A stretch of 22,296 nucleotides of DNA from a virus, in IMG/VR virus record IMGVR_UViG_3300038558_000160, positions 1-22,296 of that record, one strand, 5' to 3'. The position numbers were made by a program, and so were the translations under genes. How positions within the stretch are numbered: the first letter of the stretch is position 1; every line of letters starts with the position of its first letter. Under the pieces are notes generated by a model. The model did not search any database and was not told the DNA's origin. It worked only from the letters and a program-made list of their open reading frames with translations. Positions 4,119 through 13,343 of this stretch are shown in pieces.

Positions 4119-4335
4119 TTACCTCCTTCAAAGTGCCGTCAGCATTCCAAGAGAAGTCAAGCGTGAAGAGAAGCGTTGTGCCTTCATAAGCCTTCAGAGT
4201 AGCCAAGGTGCCTCCAGCGTTCCAAGTGAACTCAACCTTTGTCAGTCTCCTACCTGAGGGAGGCGCCATAAGATCAGACAAGGCGCTGTGAATGGCTTTG
4301 AAAGATTCCTCATATCTTCCGTAAGGGACGCTCAT
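4102..4335 (-). CDS. Small virion-associated protein of unknown function
   Basis: A 77-residue protein starting MSVPYGRYEESFKAIHSAL, followed by two matching beta-hairpin motifs, VEFTWNAGGTLATLKAYEG and LFTLDFSWNADGTLKEV. The W-N-A-x-G-T-L repeat suggests a small beta-sheet domain behind an N-terminal helix. The ATG overlaps the stop of the tail hub gene (ATGA), with GAGGAG upstream, so it is translated with the hub. Its place between hub and fibre genes suggests a tail-tip or fibre-attachment part. The opening MSVPYG resembles MSMPYG in the tail tube protein; I read this as chance or a shared N-arm. Function not known. Confidence 0.6.
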   Translation of the reverse strand: MSVPYGRYEESFKAIHSALSDLMAPPSGRRLTKVEFTWNAGGTLATLKAYEGTTLLFTLDFSWNADGTLKEVNRNDA

Positions 4336-5924
4336 CAGAAACTCCTCGCTATTTTATGCCTGCTCAGATGGTCGGTTTTGCTGCGCAATGCCCATAGGTA
4401 ATCAGCCAACAGTGGCTTTTCACGCCCAAGTTCCAAACTGATTTCTAACGTTTGCGTCTTTGCGTCGACATGGTATTCAACGCTTAGAATGCGAAAATCT
4501 CCGTCTACATTTTCGTTTGGCAGTGTTACGTGAATTTTGTCGCCAGCTAAGAGAGGTGTGTTGCCATAGTCTATGACGGTGCTTCTTACCGTGAGATATT
4601 CTGCTGGATCCTTCAAACTGTTAAGGACTGCCTTAGCCCTCAAAAGGCACTCGTTGTCGCTATACAGCTCTTCGTCGACTTCGACAAGCTCTCTTAGGCC
4701 ATATGCTGATTGGCTTGCTAAGTCCTCTTGCGTGTTGCTGTATCTGCATCCGCCGAAGAATAGGCCGTCAACCCAGAAACTGCCTGTGCCAGTGCCTGTG
4801 AACCAACAGTCAAAGCGGACCTTCTTTATTTGCGCCCAGTCAAAGCCGCTTTGGACATCCCAAACGTAGGCGTTTTCAGTCCCAACCTTAACCTGTTTCT
4901 GGAACCATTCGTCTGCGCCCGCGTTGAAGAAGTTGGAAGCATTTTTGTCTGCTGTGTCAGACAATATTATGTTGATGTTTCCATTGAAACCGCTTTCTCG
5001 CCTAATGAAGAAGTTTAGGGCTGGATACAGGTTGGCGTTGACTTCTTTGCCGCTGTTCAGCGTTAGTATGCATGCCGCGTAATAGAGGTTTGAAGCGTAG
5101 GTTTTGATGCTTCCGCTGCCTTTTTTCTTCGTTGCGGTGTCGAGGCTTACGTTGCCTGAAACAGCGCTCCACGAGCCATCTGTCGGCGTCAGACTTTCGG
5201 TCCAAGTATCTTTGTCAGCTGGGACGCTCTTATCGGCAACTCCATAAACCGTAATTCTGTTTCGTATCCTGTGGATGTCCTTGCGGTATTCGCTGGACTC
5301 GATTTTCTCACTTAGGCTGACTTGTGAGGCTTTGCTGTTTTTTGGGAAAAACTCGAACTTGGCATCTGGCGCGACGCGGAAATCAAAACCTATCACTCCG
5401 GCCTTGTCTGCGCTCTCGGCAATGTTTTTGAGAATGTCAAAGACAGGCGTGTTATCATACTCCAGTTTTAGGTAGGTAGTGTCCGTGTTTTCCACAAGTT
5501 CCGTCGAACCTCGCGTGTGGCTTAAACCAGCAAAGCTGTCAAGCAAGTCCTTCACTATTTCTTCGCCCTTCTTGTTTTCGTAAGTTTTCGTCACAACTCT
5601 GCGAAAGAGGCGTTCTCCCCAACATCTACCGCTTACGAGAACGTAGTTTTCAGTCGGAGTGGATTCGCATTTGATGCTTTCAACATGGCAGATTATGACC
5701 GGCGGAACGTTTGAACCCCTGCCGATGTCTATGTGCCCATCCATGCCAACATTTATGGGATAAGTTCCGCCTGGGCTGTACTTCTCGTCCCAGTTCCGAA
5801 GCAAAGCGTCGAAACTGTTCACTTCCGCAGTGCAACCCAGATGCACCTGCAAATCCGTAACGTCGGTTTCGGGTGGAGTCACAGAACCAAAAGCAAGGGC
5901 AACTCTAGGAATCTCCAAGCTCAT
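4335..5924 (-). CDS. Tail hub / baseplate protein with inserted beta-sandwich domain
   Basis: The 529-residue product directly follows the tape measure gene, where the hub (gp27/gpD-like) of a long-tailed virus is expected. The N-terminal ~230 residues read as a hub-type beta-barrel, with phrases such as YPINVGMDGHIDIGRG and VFDILKNIAESADKAG. The C-terminal part (about 396-529) has VIDYGNTPLLAGDKIHVTLP and TLEISLELGREKP, typical of the closing hub domain. Between them, residues about 235-395 look like a galactose-binding-type jelly roll (GSGSIKTY, then FDWAQIKKVRFDCWF and SFWVDGLFFGG). The hub closes the tail tube and carries fibres; the insert would present a sugar-binding surface at the tail tip. 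Hub identity rests on position and pattern; the insert's binding role is inference. Confidence 0.7.
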   Translation of the reverse strand: MSLEIPRVALAFGSVTPPETDVTDLQVHLGCTAEVNSFDALLRNWDEKYSPGGTYPINVGMDGHIDIGRGSNVPPVIICHVESIKCESTPTENYVLVSGRCWGERLFRRVVTKTYENKKGEEIVKDLLDSFAGLSHTRGSTELVENTDTTYLKLEYDNTPVFDILKNIAESADKAGVIGFDFRVAPDAKFEFFPKNSKASQVSLSEKIESSEYRKDIHRIRNRITVYGVADKSVPADKDTWTESLTPTDGSWSAVSGNVSLDTATKKKGSGSIKTYASNLYYAACILTLNSGKEVNANLYPALNFFIRRESGFNGNINIILSDTADKNASNFFNAGADEWFQKQVKVGTENAYVWDVQSGFDWAQIKKVRFDCWFTGTGTGSFWVDGLFFGGCRYSNTQEDLASQSAYGLRELVEVDEELYSDNECLLRAKAVLNSLKDPAEYLTVRSTVIDYGNTPLLAGDKIHVTLPNENVDGDFRILSVEYHVDAKTQTLEISLELGREKPLLADYLWALRSKTDHLSRHKIARSF

Positions 5925-5927
5925 AGG

Positions 5928-6470
5928 CTATTCCACACCTCGTCTGAGATATTCCTCTTCTCCAGCTCGACGAATACTGCGAGTATACGTAGGCACCTCA
6001 GCAGCAGCCTCGTTGAAGCCCTGAACACTAGCTGTTGCAGCATTCATCTGCGAAGCAAAATACCACATTGCAGCGGCAGCCGCAACGACAACCGCGATGC
6101 CAACACCAGTCAAAGCCAGAAACGTCGCATAGCTAACGTTTAACGAGTTTTGAGCAGCCATGGCAATCCAACAAGCAGCAGCATAGACTTTCTGGGCTAC
6201 TGCAACTCCCCAGCTTGTCCGCATAAACATGCCCATTATCGTAACAACCATCATTGCAGAATTGAAAACCCGAGCCTGTTCGTCATTAAGCAAGCCGAAT
6301 TCATGTGCGATGTGCCCGATAGCAGTGCCAGTCGCCCCTAGACCAGCAATTGTCGCGCCCAAAGATTTTATCCGCACAGACAAACCTTCAGCGTCAGACT
6401 GAATCTTCGCAAACTCGTTGCTTGCACGATTGACGGCACGGATAGTTATGGCCACTTCCCGGAAACTCAC
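5928..6470 (-). CDS. Very short tail tape measure protein
   Basis: Tape measure proteins set tail length and are ejected with the DNA. This one has 180 residues. It starts MSFREVAITIRAVNRASNEF, an amphipathic helical start typical of the family, followed by Ala/Gly-rich helices. There are two strongly hydrophobic segments, at about 73-95 and 116-139 (FLALTGVGIAVVVAAAAAMW), as seen in membrane-penetrating parts of tape measures. It lies between the gp10-like gene (GTGA overlap, GGAGG upstream) and the hub gene three bases later. Most siphovirus tape measures are several hundred residues or more. The reading frame shows no sign of truncation, since both ends abut their neighbours. Confidence 0.75.
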   Translation of the reverse strand: MSFREVAITIRAVNRASNEFAKIQSDAEGLSVRIKSLGATIAGLGATGTAIGHIAHEFGLLNDEQARVFNSAMMVVTIMGMFMRTSWGVAVAQKVYAAACWIAMAAQNSLNVSYATFLALTGVGIAVVVAAAAAMWYFASQMNAATASVQGFNEAAAEVPTYTRSIRRAGEEEYLRRGVE

Positions 6471-6838
6471 GTCAAACCAGCCTCCAGTTTAGCCGCATCA
6501 ACAGCCTCGCAAACTATCTGCTCAAGCCTTGGAAGGTGCTCCTGAAACGCGGGAAAAAGGCAAGGCCTAGCCCTCATCCGTCTCGTTCCAAACTCCACAA
6601 ACAACGCATAAGGAGCTTCCGAGCCTATTTCGGCCACCCATTCACTGACCTTCGCGTAAATCGAGTCTCTTAAATGTCCACTTCTGACAGGAACAAGCTG
6701 TTTAGCCAAGGCTTTGACCAATTCCGCCCAGTCCTCCAACTGCCTCTCAACATAGCTTTGCAAACCGGAATCAAACCTTTCCACGGCAACTCTGAACTCT
6801 TCCACTCCCTCTACGTCAAGGTTAACTTCAACAGACAC
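6467..6838 (-). CDS. HK97-gp10-like head-tail / tail completion protein
   Basis: The 123-residue product matches the HK97 gp10 family: a helical N-terminal half, then LVPVRSGHLRDSIYAKV, a strand, then YALFVEFGTRRMRARPCLFP and a C-terminal helix. Members join head and tail or complete the tail. An ATG at 6898 gives a 20-residue longer frame. I prefer GTG 6838 because GGAGG lies nine bases upstream and the family domain starts right after it; the longer N-terminus (basic, KKGNGRR) is best explained as the shadow of the frameshifted chaperone coding region. The GTG start overlaps the stop of that frameshift product. The place after the tail chaperone is unusual, since gp10-like genes normally precede the tail tube gene. 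Confidence 0.82.
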   Translation of the reverse strand: MSVEVNLDVEGVEEFRVAVERFDSGLQSYVERQLEDWAELVKALAKQLVPVRSGHLRDSIYAKVSEWVAEIGSEAPYALFVEFGTRRMRARPCLFPAFQEHLPRLEQIVCEAVDAAKLEAGLT

Positions 6839-7363
6839 GCCGCTTCGCCTCCCGTTCCCCTTTTTTGCGTTCTTCCTCCGACTGCCTGTCCATTTCATTC
6901 AAGATTACGATGAAGTGTTGGATGGTTTTTGCTGGCTGCCCTGCAAGCTGGTTTGGTGTCCAGCCGAATTCTTTGCAGAGGCGGAAGTCTGTGAGAGCTG
7001 CGTTTGCCCTTTGTCTTCGGATAGTTCTGATAAAAAAGCAGACTCTTCCAAACTGACATTGTTCAGTCTGTTGGCGATTTGGCTGAAAAGCTCGCCTAAA
7101 CCTATTGGAACGCCATCGTCTTCGCTCAACAGTTTTTCAAGAGTCACTGGCTTATGTGCTGGTTGCTCTCTTAGGCTTGCCCAGATTGTTTCAGCTTGAA
7201 CGCCTATGAAGTCGCTGCTCGTGAAATGACCTGAAATCGGGTGGTATTTGGTGTACTTCTGAATTATTCGGCTCCGCTTAGCCCACGTTACAGCGCTAAA
7301 AACGTAGCGGCCAGCATACTCCTTCCCGAAGCGTTCATCAACTTCCAAAACCTCTGTCGGCAC
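6828..7363 (-). CDS. Tail assembly chaperone, long (gpGT-like) form by -1 ribosomal frameshift
   Basis: From the T TTT TTA heptamer the -1 frame is open for 67 codons to a TGA at 6828-6830. It encodes KEFGWTPNQLAGQPAKTIQH and a charged helix ending EEERKKGEREAKRR. The phrase around FGWTP, followed by a long helix, is what I expect of the T part of gpGT chaperones. There is no canonical start codon in this frame until its 44th codon, after the conserved part, so independent initiation is unlikely. The fusion would be 111 + 67 = 178 residues. In lambda-like viruses a fixed low ratio of long to short form is needed for tail assembly; that is known for bacteriophages and inferred here. A lost T in the homopolymer (sequencing error) is the main alternative. 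Confidence 0.72.
6905..7363 (-). CDS. Tail assembly chaperone, short (gpG-like) form
   Basis: Located between the tail tube and tape measure genes, where long-tailed viruses encode the chaperone that coats the tape measure during tail assembly. The frame-0 product has 152 residues from GTG 7363, chosen because GGAGG lies seven bases upstream; the TTG at 7369 would overlap it. The first ~110 residues are a mixed-fold acidic domain (VDERFGKEYAGRYVFSAVTW near the start). After the slippery site the frame-0 sequence becomes a low-complexity Ser/Gln-rich tail without family resemblance, as expected for a non-conserved terminus of the short form. A longer form is made by -1 frameshift (see 6828-7363). 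Confidence 0.75.
   Translation of the reverse strand: MPTEVLEVDERFGKEYAGRYVFSAVTWAKRSRIIQKYTKYHPISGHFTSSDFIGVQAETIWASLREQPAHKPVTLEKLLSEDDGVPIGLGELFSQIANRLNNVSLEESAFLSELSEDKGQTQLSQTSASAKNSAGHQTSLQGSQQKPSNTSS
7031..7037 (-). promoter_or_regulatory. -1 frameshift slippery heptamer T TTT TTA
   Basis: On the minus strand the frame-0 codons read GCT TTT TTA TCA, giving the X XXY YYZ heptamer U UUU UUA in the correct phase. It is the same heptamer as the HIV-1 gag-pol site. Both tRNAs can re-pair in the -1 frame (TTT TTT), after which reading continues as ATC AGA. It sits where the chaperone's conserved domain ends and the gpT-like extension begins. I did not find an obvious strong downstream hairpin by eye. 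Confidence 0.75.
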
Positions 7364-7376
7364 AATCAAGCCTCCA

Positions 7377-8231
7377 TTAGCTTATTACTGCGTCTCTGGC
7401 CACGAACGACGCTTTCAAACTGACTAGGTCTTCGACGCGTGTCGGCGTGGCGGCGTTTTCCCACTTGCAGTACTTGAATAGGGCGCTGTTTGTGCCGCCT
7501 AGGCCGAACTTTAAACTGAATTCGCTGTCGCTGATTATGTCGTCGTATTCTTGTTTGCTCTCAAACTCAAACACCAATTCGCCTGTTAAGTTGCGGTGGC
7601 GTGCTGCAAGGTATTTGAGCAGTTCTCCGCTGGTTGAGCGGATGACAGGCACCTGTTTAAGGTTGTTTTCAACTGCGAATTTCCAGTCTGTAGCCCTTTC
7701 CATTGCCGTTAAGCCTGAACCATCTGCTGCCCCGCGCTGAACGTAGCTTTGATGGAACGGAACTGCCCCAGCATAATCAGCATAGGTGGCTCCAGCTATC
7801 TTCGACGTACCCACGACAAGGTTCTGTCCAATCAAATCCACCGTGGCCTTAACAGCATCTTCGATGCCGCATTCCACAGTGACTTTGTCTATTCTGCAAC
7901 CCTTGCCGAGCAAATCGATGACTCCAACAGCTTTCTCATAAAAAACTTCAACGCTTAACGAATCCAATGTCGTAACGTGCTGCAGAAAGCCTATCGGGGC
8001 GTCGCTTGGCAGGGGATAAGCAACTCTTAAGCCTACGTCTCTGAGTCCTTTTTTGATGGTTTGCAGGTCTCGGCTTCCTATTCCGCGAAGTTTGATCAAG
8101 TTTGGATTCAGTGAAGGCTCAACGCTTTCTGCTTTGATGCCGAGCATTGACGGGTTAGGGGGTGTTTCTCCGTAGTTTGTTTCCTGCACATAGTAGATTT
8201 TTGCTTCGTGTGCTCCATATGGCATGCTCAT
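7377..8231 (-). CDS. Major tail tube protein
   Basis: The 284-residue product precedes the chaperone and tape measure genes, the standard place of the tail tube protein. It is beta-rich with the long loops typical of tube subunits. It starts MSMPYGAHEAKIYYVQE and includes VDLIGQNLVVGTSKIAG in the middle and SDSEFSLKFGLGGTNSALF plus a closing VSLKASFVARDAVIS. This matches the phage_tube style of polypeptide, an inner barrel with N- and C-terminal arms. GTAGGAGGAATG precedes the ATG, a strong ribosome site in keeping with high expression of a hexameric repeated subunit. No enzymatic motif. I am confident of the role from order, length and pattern, less so of the exact family. Confidence 0.8.
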   Translation of the reverse strand: MSMPYGAHEAKIYYVQETNYGETPPNPSMLGIKAESVEPSLNPNLIKLRGIGSRDLQTIKKGLRDVGLRVAYPLPSDAPIGFLQHVTTLDSLSVEVFYEKAVGVIDLLGKGCRIDKVTVECGIEDAVKATVDLIGQNLVVGTSKIAGATYADYAGAVPFHQSYVQRGAADGSGLTAMERATDWKFAVENNLKQVPVIRSTSGELLKYLAARHRNLTGELVFEFESKQEYDDIISDSEFSLKFGLGGTNSALFKYCKWENAATPTRVEDLVSLKASFVARDAVIS

Positions 8232-11180: not shown

Positions 11181-13343
11181 TTACGTTCTCGTTTTCTTCA
11201 GCGCTTTTTTCTTTGCACACAGAATTGCTGAAACAGACAGAGCCATAAGCAGTAACACGCTTAGGCTCGATTGGAATTCTGGCACCACCTGATAAACGAA
11301 GTAGGGCTCCGTTCCGTCGCTTGTCGCGTTGTTTCCCATGTTGTCATAGGCAACTATTCTGAACCTCACATACGTTCCATAGGGTTGCCCCGGAATCGTC
11401 GCGTTGCAAGCATTCGACGTATAATTATAGCTCATCAGCACGGGCGTCCAAGTCTGGCTGTCATTCAAATTGTAATACAGCGTCACATTTTTCACTCCAC
11501 TGTCCGCGTCGGTGACGTTCACAAAAACTTGTACCTGCTGATGTGGCTGCACGTTGCTATCTGGCACGCGAGAAGGTGTGTCTATGAACGGCCCATTGCT
11601 GTCTTCACCCATCTGCACTGTCACATTGACTCTTGCACCTATCCTGTCACTGTAATCGTAAGCGGTGTAGTTGTAGTGAGCCCCAACTGAGCCTGAGATC
11701 AATCCTTCAGCTTCTATAGTTATGTTGCACGATGTGGAAGAGGTTGCCACAAGCGTCCAACTAACTGTCGAGCTGGCTCCAGCCTGTAAAGAGCCCGTGC
11801 CCAACACTTTCTTTGAAGCTTCGCCTTCGGCTAACGTCAGATTAGCATTGGCAGGCAAGATCATAGTTGCGTTGCATGATGTCGCTGGATAGTTGTCAAA
11901 CGCATTTGGAAGCGGTTGTGGATACGTGATCGTGGCGTTCATTTGGAAAGGCGTTTCGGGTTTGACGTAGGTTGGTGCTGAAACGTTTACTGTCCAAGGC
12001 GAAGCGAAAAGCGTCCAGTTAAACCAGTACGACCAAAGGTCTAGGAAATACGTGTAGTTGAAAACCAATTTTGGACCGCCGTATCTTCCACCCCATGTTA
12101 CATTGTTCCACGGATCATGCAAGAAAACGTCAGTTTCATTGTAACCAGTCACAACACGGAAATGCGTTGAATGATGAAAACCACTGTACCACATCAACAG
12201 AACCAACGGTCTGTCCTGATCTATGTAACTCTTAAGCTGCTCTAAGCTCACGTGTTGCGCTTCAAAAGCAGCATAGCCAAGCTTGCGCAGAGCGTAACCC
12301 GTAATGTTTCTGTCTGGAATTTCTCCTCCACCCGAAGTACTGATGTTGCTAAAGTGTGCGGCTCTTCGCAACTCGTCAGTAAAAGTCCCATTGACAGGAT
12401 CGCCAAGGGTCCTGGCAACATCTGCAATCTCCGATTGGTTAATGTCTTCGCCATAGTAGTCAAAAACCATTTCAAGACACGCCGGTCCGCAATAATAGTC
12501 TATGTCTTGATAGTGAAAGGGAACGGTGATAAAATGCGCTACACCCTGCATCTCCAAGTAAAACGTGTGCAAAACATCGGCCACCAAGTTAACTGCCAAG
12601 TTAAGCGATTCTCCGCAGCGGTTTCTGAAAGCTGGATTACTCCAGTTGTAATTGTCATCCATCCAGACACAGGTGAACTCTCCATTCACGTCAAACGTCG
12701 TGTCGTAGGCAAGCTCCAGCGTGGCGTTGTAGGCGGAAATGCGGCTTAACAGGCCGTCGAAGGCCAGAAAACTGTTGAATTCGTCATTGTAGCTGTCTGT
12801 TCGTTCGTTCACGTAGTCTTCATAGTCGCTATGATGCGTTTCAGCACCCCATTCAGTGACGGCTCCCATTACATGTCCAAAAACCGCCATGTCGGCGACG
12901 TAGTGCGTCATAGCGCCAAGGGTCTTCGTTGCGTTAACCAAGTCGCCAGTCTTAAAAATGCTAGTTGCAGCATCGTACTCTTCTTGAGCCCTCACCGCCG
13001 AAGCATTATCCTGCAACAGACCATCAGCAAAATAATACACATGATGATTAGCCGTGTCCCCAATGCCATCTGGAGCCCCTCCATTGTCAGGCAGCTCAGT
13101 CCCATACAAGTAACTGGCAGCATAGTCAACGATGAACTGTTTTTCGTTCGAAGGCAACCAGTCCAAAGCGTGCTGCGCAATCCAATCATGTGTTCCATAA
13201 TCGGGGTTAGACGGATCGGCGCTGAAGCCGCCATTGCTCCAGCCAAAAACCTTGGCAGAATTAGCAATTGCGCCGAGTAACAAAGTCGACAAAATGATGA
13301 CAAAAAAAGACACGACAAGCTTTTTTGGCAATAAACTCACCAT
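11181..13343 (-). CDS. Secreted surface protein: zinc phospholipase C domain + C39 peptidase domain + Ig-like repeats + membrane anchor
   Basis: 720 residues. A signal peptide (about 1-30) precedes a zinc-dependent phospholipase C domain with a near-complete ligand set: W35, H52, D86, H100, H147, D151, H157, H171, E175. The spacings D86-H100 (14), H147-D151 (4), D151-H157 (6), H157-H171 (14) and H171-E175 (4) equal those of Bacillus cereus PC-PLC. A C39-type cysteine peptidase domain follows (about 274-415), with C285 in DYYCGPACLEM, H394 in THFRVVTGY and D410 in FLHDPW. Residues about 450-680 are Ig-like, rich in N-x-S/T sites, and share DADSGVKNVTLYY with the 14400-16046 protein. The end is VVPEF, a helix and KKKALKKTRT. 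It would act outside the membrane on lipid head groups and proteins. A weak TATA about 25 bases before the ATG suggests a near-leaderless transcript. Confidence 0.82.
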   Translation of the reverse strand: MVSLLPKKLVVSFFVIILSTLLLGAIANSAKVFGWSNGGFSADPSNPDYGTHDWIAQHALDWLPSNEKQFIVDYAASYLYGTELPDNGGAPDGIGDTANHHVYYFADGLLQDNASAVRAQEEYDAATSIFKTGDLVNATKTLGAMTHYVADMAVFGHVMGAVTEWGAETHHSDYEDYVNERTDSYNDEFNSFLAFDGLLSRISAYNATLELAYDTTFDVNGEFTCVWMDDNYNWSNPAFRNRCGESLNLAVNLVADVLHTFYLEMQGVAHFITVPFHYQDIDYYCGPACLEMVFDYYGEDINQSEIADVARTLGDPVNGTFTDELRRAAHFSNISTSGGGEIPDRNITGYALRKLGYAAFEAQHVSLEQLKSYIDQDRPLVLLMWYSGFHHSTHFRVVTGYNETDVFLHDPWNNVTWGGRYGGPKLVFNYTYFLDLWSYWFNWTLFASPWTVNVSAPTYVKPETPFQMNATITYPQPLPNAFDNYPATSCNATMILPANANLTLAEGEASKKVLGTGSLQAGASSTVSWTLVATSSTSCNITIEAEGLISGSVGAHYNYTAYDYSDRIGARVNVTVQMGEDSNGPFIDTPSRVPDSNVQPHQQVQVFVNVTDADSGVKNVTLYYNLNDSQTWTPVLMSYNYTSNACNATIPGQPYGTYVRFRIVAYDNMGNNATSDGTEPYFVYQVVPEFQSSLSVLLLMALSVSAILCAKKKALKKTRT

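Follow-up and report, generated by a model that had tools for sequence, protein, structure and literature searches.

Organization of the locus

The window, that is, the whole 22,296-base IMG/VR virus record that was analyzed, carries a gene, here called G, and a second reading frame that overlaps the end of G and extends it (Table 1). The heptamer TTTTTTA at 7037-7031 on the minus strand begins with the third base of a frame-0 codon, and the frame-0 codons across it read GCT TTT TTA (7039-7031, minus strand), which places it in the X_XXY_YYZ phase, just as the original prediction had it. The −1 frame on the same strand is open from 7136 to a stop at 6830-6828, and the 67 codons claimed for it follow the slip, opening with IRTIRR and including EFGWTPNQ. 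The fused G-T product (7363-6828, minus strand) would be 178 aa long. We regard the GTG at 7363, the boundary given in the original prediction, as a better start for G than the TTG at 7369, the longest-ORF alternative, because the Shine-Dalgarno-like GGAGG lies at 7375-7371 and because this GTG aligns with the ATG starts of relatives.

Table 1. Features of the chaperone locus and its neighbors (window coordinates)
Feature	Position	Strand	Basis
Gene G, frame-0 tail assembly chaperone, 152 aa, GTG start	6905..7363	(-)	Open frame, Shine-Dalgarno, predicted fold
Slippery heptamer T_TTT_TTA, X_XXY_YYZ phase	7031..7037	(-)	Sequence; T6 invariant in T-type relatives
−1 frame extension (T part), 67 codons past slip, stop included	6828..7031	(-)	PHROG 9001; −1 in 207/207 loci
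Frame-0 tail of G after heptamer, Ser/Gln-rich, 41 codons, overlaps extension	6905..7030	(-)	
Shine-Dalgarno-like GGAGG, 7 nt before GTG of G	7371..7375	(-)	Sequence
Tail tube protein gene, directly upstream of G	7377..8231	(-)	PF18906 Phage_tube_2, 8.6e-16
HK97-gp10-like tail completion/neck gene	6467..6838	(-)	PF04883, 5.6e-10; phrog_5, 9.8e-20
Hydrophobic 180-aa protein at tape measure place	5928..6470	(-)	Position; only sub-threshold tape measure PHROG matches
Tail protein, YqbQ-like	4335..5924	(-)	PF24032, 1.5e-7; phrog_400, 4.5e-9

The extension of the window scores against the tail assembly chaperone profile PHROG 9001 with E=7.5e-13, and all 15 extensions of a diverse set of 15 match this profile too. 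An AlphaFold model of G (pLDDT 90) has as its best PDB match in Foldseek the Bacillus subtilis protein YqbN (3klu; probability 0.95, TM 0.62, and E=0.2, which is not significant) and as its second the HK97 tail chaperone (2ob9); we treat this predicted YqbN/HK97-like fold as supportive only. A sequence-family search with G gave no significant match (PF08890 was weak, at 0.011), and a fold search with the extension gave no meaningful match. Based on the PHROG 9001 extension, the predicted fold of G, Bacillus homologues that are likewise in the −1 frame, and the neighboring tail tube gene, the proposal that the locus encodes a tail chaperone is upheld: sequence comparison and modeling support a predicted tail assembly chaperone pair of the lambda G/GT type with a programmed −1 frameshift.

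Downstream, the gp10-like gene probably starts at GTG 6838, 8 nt before the G-T stop and overlapping it, and this offset of −8 is also the commonest among relatives (82 loci). The overlap of start and stop suggests that the gp10-like gene is coupled to frameshifted ribosomes. In most relatives, too, the start of the gp10-like gene overlaps the G-T stop, at offsets of −8, −13, or −1. The tape-measure-like gene, assigned by position only, comes after the gp10-like gene and so does not directly adjoin G-T. The protein at the tape measure position is 180 aa long here and 152 to 254 aa long in relatives; should this be the tape measure, the tail would be expected to be very short, and a chaperone frameshift system next to so small a ruler is unusual.

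Two other genes on the minus strand deserve mention. Near the left end, 421-1056 encodes a cyclophilin-type peptidyl-prolyl isomerase with a membrane-like segment (PF00160, 1.5e-38), which could be host or cargo DNA. Amid the virion genes, 11181-13343 encodes a large, secreted-looking protein with a C39-like peptidase domain, a weak zinc phospholipase C-like domain, and a C-terminal membrane-like segment.

Relatives and host

Relatives were collected with the window's own sequences as queries in two viral-contig searches, which yielded 141 loci, and with a G-domain profile that stops before the slippery codons. Since loci were chosen by the upstream domain in one of the window-sequence searches, the G-profile search, and the class-genome search, the heptamer is not what recruited most of them. 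This first round comprised 275 loci, 207 of them distinct, from Bathyarchaeia genomes and IMG/VR contigs; the wider set, with more distant searches added, holds 265 archaeal-type loci, of which 3 are cut by contig ends.

The genome collection contributed 20 loci, and 19 of these sit in Bathyarchaeota assemblies. The assembly of the remaining one, L155, is labeled Candidatus Bipolaricaulis, a bacterium, a label that may reflect a binning error. Within the class Bathyarchaeia, the G profile matches 32 of 257 genomes; a search of 398 Thermoproteota genomes gave matches in 14, all of them already known from the class search. The archaeal origin suggested at the outset is thus borne out, and, judging by the assemblies in which its relatives are found, the window is a virus of uncultured sediment archaea of the class Bathyarchaeia.

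Conservation of the frame relation and the heptamer

At every one of the 207 distinct loci (and at all 275), the extension is in frame −1 with respect to G, and each of the 207 has an in-phase heptamer: T_TTT_TTA at 171, T_TTT_TTG at 12, A_AAA_AAC at 19, A_AAA_AAT at 3, and A_AAA_AAA at 2. The wider set of 265 is similar, with TTTTTTA at 189 loci, AAAAAAC at 46, TTTTTTG at 22, AAAAAAA at 3, and AAAAAAT at 2, the remaining 3 being those cut by contig ends. As background, among 21,514 other codon positions in these G genes, such motifs turn up in phase a single time. The alignment of homologues proposed with the original prediction thus finds the heptamer and both frames kept throughout, and the case named there as refuting it, a fused single-frame G-T gene that lacks a slippery site, does not occur among the 275 loci.

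These counts bear directly on sequencing or assembly error, in which a run of seven T's misread as six would have split one continuous gene. Homopolymers are indeed error-prone. Even so, the same frame relation recurs at all 207 distinct loci, which come from many metagenomes and genomes obtained independently, and the A-type and Bacillus relatives use other letters; homologues from independent assemblies refute the misread run, and we assign this explanation a negligible probability.

Might the extension instead be a separate protein, made from its own start codon or by reinitiation? At 89 of 262 loci, some ATG, GTG, or TTG does occur close to the site in the −1 frame, and A-type extensions contain an ATG (RAM) after their first few codons. 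At the other 173, none of these codons is present between the −1 stop on the upstream side and the twelfth codon after the heptamer, in agreement with the prediction that the extension has no start of its own, and an invariant heptamer would be needless for a protein begun separately. We consider this explanation highly improbable.

The pattern of substitution points to the same site. Among the 183 T-type relatives, the first six T's are invariant and the seventh base is A or G. Two of the invariant T's, the first and the fourth, fall at frame-0 third codon positions and are synonymous in frame 0, whereas phenylalanine elsewhere in G is encoded by TTC 483 times versus TTT 224 times. Across 25 clusters below 70% identity, the probability of finding only TTT by codon usage is near 10^-12.5, a rough figure that takes the clusters as independent and ignores the need for Phe in the −1 frame. 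Upstream of the heptamer, variability at the three codon positions of frame 0 is 0.79, 0.59, and 1.51 bits; downstream, in the −1 frame, it is 0.90, 0.43, and 1.08 and then 0.47, 0.29, and 1.13. The entropy maximum therefore moves from position 3 of frame 0 to position 3 of the −1 frame at the heptamer, which means that coding changes frame there. The frame-0 tail of G had been described as of low complexity, and it is rich in Ser and Gln; given that its variability tracks the −1 frame, this tail looks like a by-product of −1 coding.

A-type loci have their heptamer, likewise in phase, one codon upstream of where T-type loci have theirs, so the site has been replaced at least once; about two A/T changes are placed on a tree that is itself weakly supported. 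Among the archaeal relatives examined, no homopolymer site has given way to a non-homopolymer heptamer, and none of the 262 assigned sites is A_AAA_AAG.

A model for the production of two chaperones

In total, the comparative evidence indicates that this virus almost certainly makes two tail-building helper proteins from one gene through a −1 slip, an arrangement familiar from bacterial viruses and retained in more than 250 related archaeal viruses. We think it very probable that the window encodes the G and G-T chaperone pair of a Bathyarchaeia tailed virus or provirus and that the slip is made by the ribosome. In this model, the majority of ribosomes would stay in frame 0 and terminate at 6905, releasing G. 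A minority, with tRNA-Phe on TTT and tRNA-Leu on TTA, would shift back one base at T_TTT_TTA and continue in the −1 frame to 6828, producing G-T. By analogy with lambda, G would coat the tape measure, and the T part would recruit tail tube subunits and start their polymerization; with such roles, the ratio of G to G-T, set by slippage, would matter. The sequences themselves show the two frames, the phase of the heptamer, the conservation of both, and the family, and prediction supplies the fold. That the slippage is ribosomal, how frequent it would be, and how the chaperones would act are points that we infer.

The principal alternative is transcriptional slippage: if RNA polymerase gained or lost bases while copying the T6 or A6 run, part of the mRNA would encode G and T in a single frame. 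Each site is a homopolymer of T or A, 6 or 7 bases long, and in some bacteria slippage of this kind yields comparable protein pairs (PMC5009743). The bacterial runs, however, have 9 A or T (PMC5009743), and those here are short and barely drift in length, being exactly 6 in 200 of 207 loci. Moreover, a polymerase would be indifferent to phase and to the last base, yet the last base obeys codon rules: A or G follows U6, and C, A, or U, never G, follows A6, while the related Bacillus phages carry G or A after A6. We therefore judge transcriptional slippage unlikely.

Ribosomal slippage at these sites may operate without a strong RNA stimulator. Folding of 116 sequences in sliding 60-nt segments showed no conserved RNA structure downstream, where the mean z was only around −0.3 to −0.6, and RNAalifold found zero consensus pairs in 101 T-type sequences. 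Shine-Dalgarno-like sequences precede the heptamer at 91 of 207 loci, a weak excess over the expected 76.5 +/- 6.4, and the purine-rich Glu-Glu codons ahead of the heptamer are the source of this slight excess.

Does the host choose the heptamer?

We speculate, with more doubt than conviction, that homologous bacterial and archaeal chaperone genes keep the frameshift while the host ribosome and tRNAs choose the heptamer. In this reading, Bacillus phages would use A_AAA_AAG or A_AAA_AAA, and Bathyarchaeia viruses U_UUU_UUA, U_UUU_UUG, or A_AAA_AAC, with eukaryote-like A-site codons. The absence of A_AAA_AAG in the archaea and its use in the bacterial relatives fit tRNA-dependent slippage. The difference may also reflect descent rather than adaptation, because the comparison is between one archaeal lineage and one bacterial group. 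The archaeal heptamer is identical to that of HIV-1, as had been pointed out, a likeness that we attribute to convergence.

If the proposal is true, host-chosen heptamers amount to a natural experiment on the slipperiness of the archaeal ribosome, apparently without a strong RNA stimulator. The sites of this family could be used as they stand to test slippage by archaeal ribosomes, and the G-T protein would be overlooked if these Bathyarchaeia viruses were annotated by single open frames.

Comparison with known systems

As in lambda gpG/gpGT, two products would arise through a −1 slip close to where G ends, at a heptamer of the X_XXY_YYZ form, the locus adjoins the major tail protein gene, and the predicted function is tail assembly chaperone. 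In contrast to lambda, the archaeal family uses a different heptamer (U6A/G or A6C), and a gp10-like gene stands between G-T and the tape-measure-like gene. The likeness is one of gene arrangement and predicted function.

Also related are Geobacillus phage GBK1 and the Andromedavirus-type phages of Bacillus (PHROG 9001), which share a homologous −1 extension, a G of similar length, and a tail protein gene upstream. They differ in the heptamer, A_AAA_AAG (12 of 17) or A_AAA_AAA, and in having the tape measure gene directly after. Homology of the archaeal and Bacillus G domains was considered and not accepted (hhalign probability, 2.5%).

Among archaeal tailed viruses, a −1 frameshift in the tail chaperone has been proposed for HVTV-1 and HCTV-1, -2, and -5, along with a +1 frameshift in HSTV-2 (PMC5009743, PMC8211752), and a −1 frameshift has also been proposed for Hardycor1 (PMC7911831). 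The hosts of the −1 group are Halobacteria, unlike that of the window, and none of these −1 viruses was matched in a tblastn search of the phage collection. The original prediction held that proven archaeal cases are few. This is so, as a 2021 review lists a single −1 frameshift demonstrated in archaea, that in Saccharolobus fucA1, and viral cases by prediction (PMC8211752), with the qualification that haloarchaeal virus chaperones had been proposed earlier (PMC8211752, PMC5009743, PMC7911831). Frameshifting is absent from two papers on Bathyarchaeia viruses (PMC10848311, PMC11705971), and within a limited literature collection, Bathyarchaeia together with ribosomal frameshifting retrieved only a review and no earlier report for this host class. 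A −1 frameshifted archaeal tail chaperone is thus already known by prediction; what the Bathyarchaeia case adds is unusually strong comparative support for that prediction, since hundreds of sequences from this class carry the argument well past a single heptamer match.
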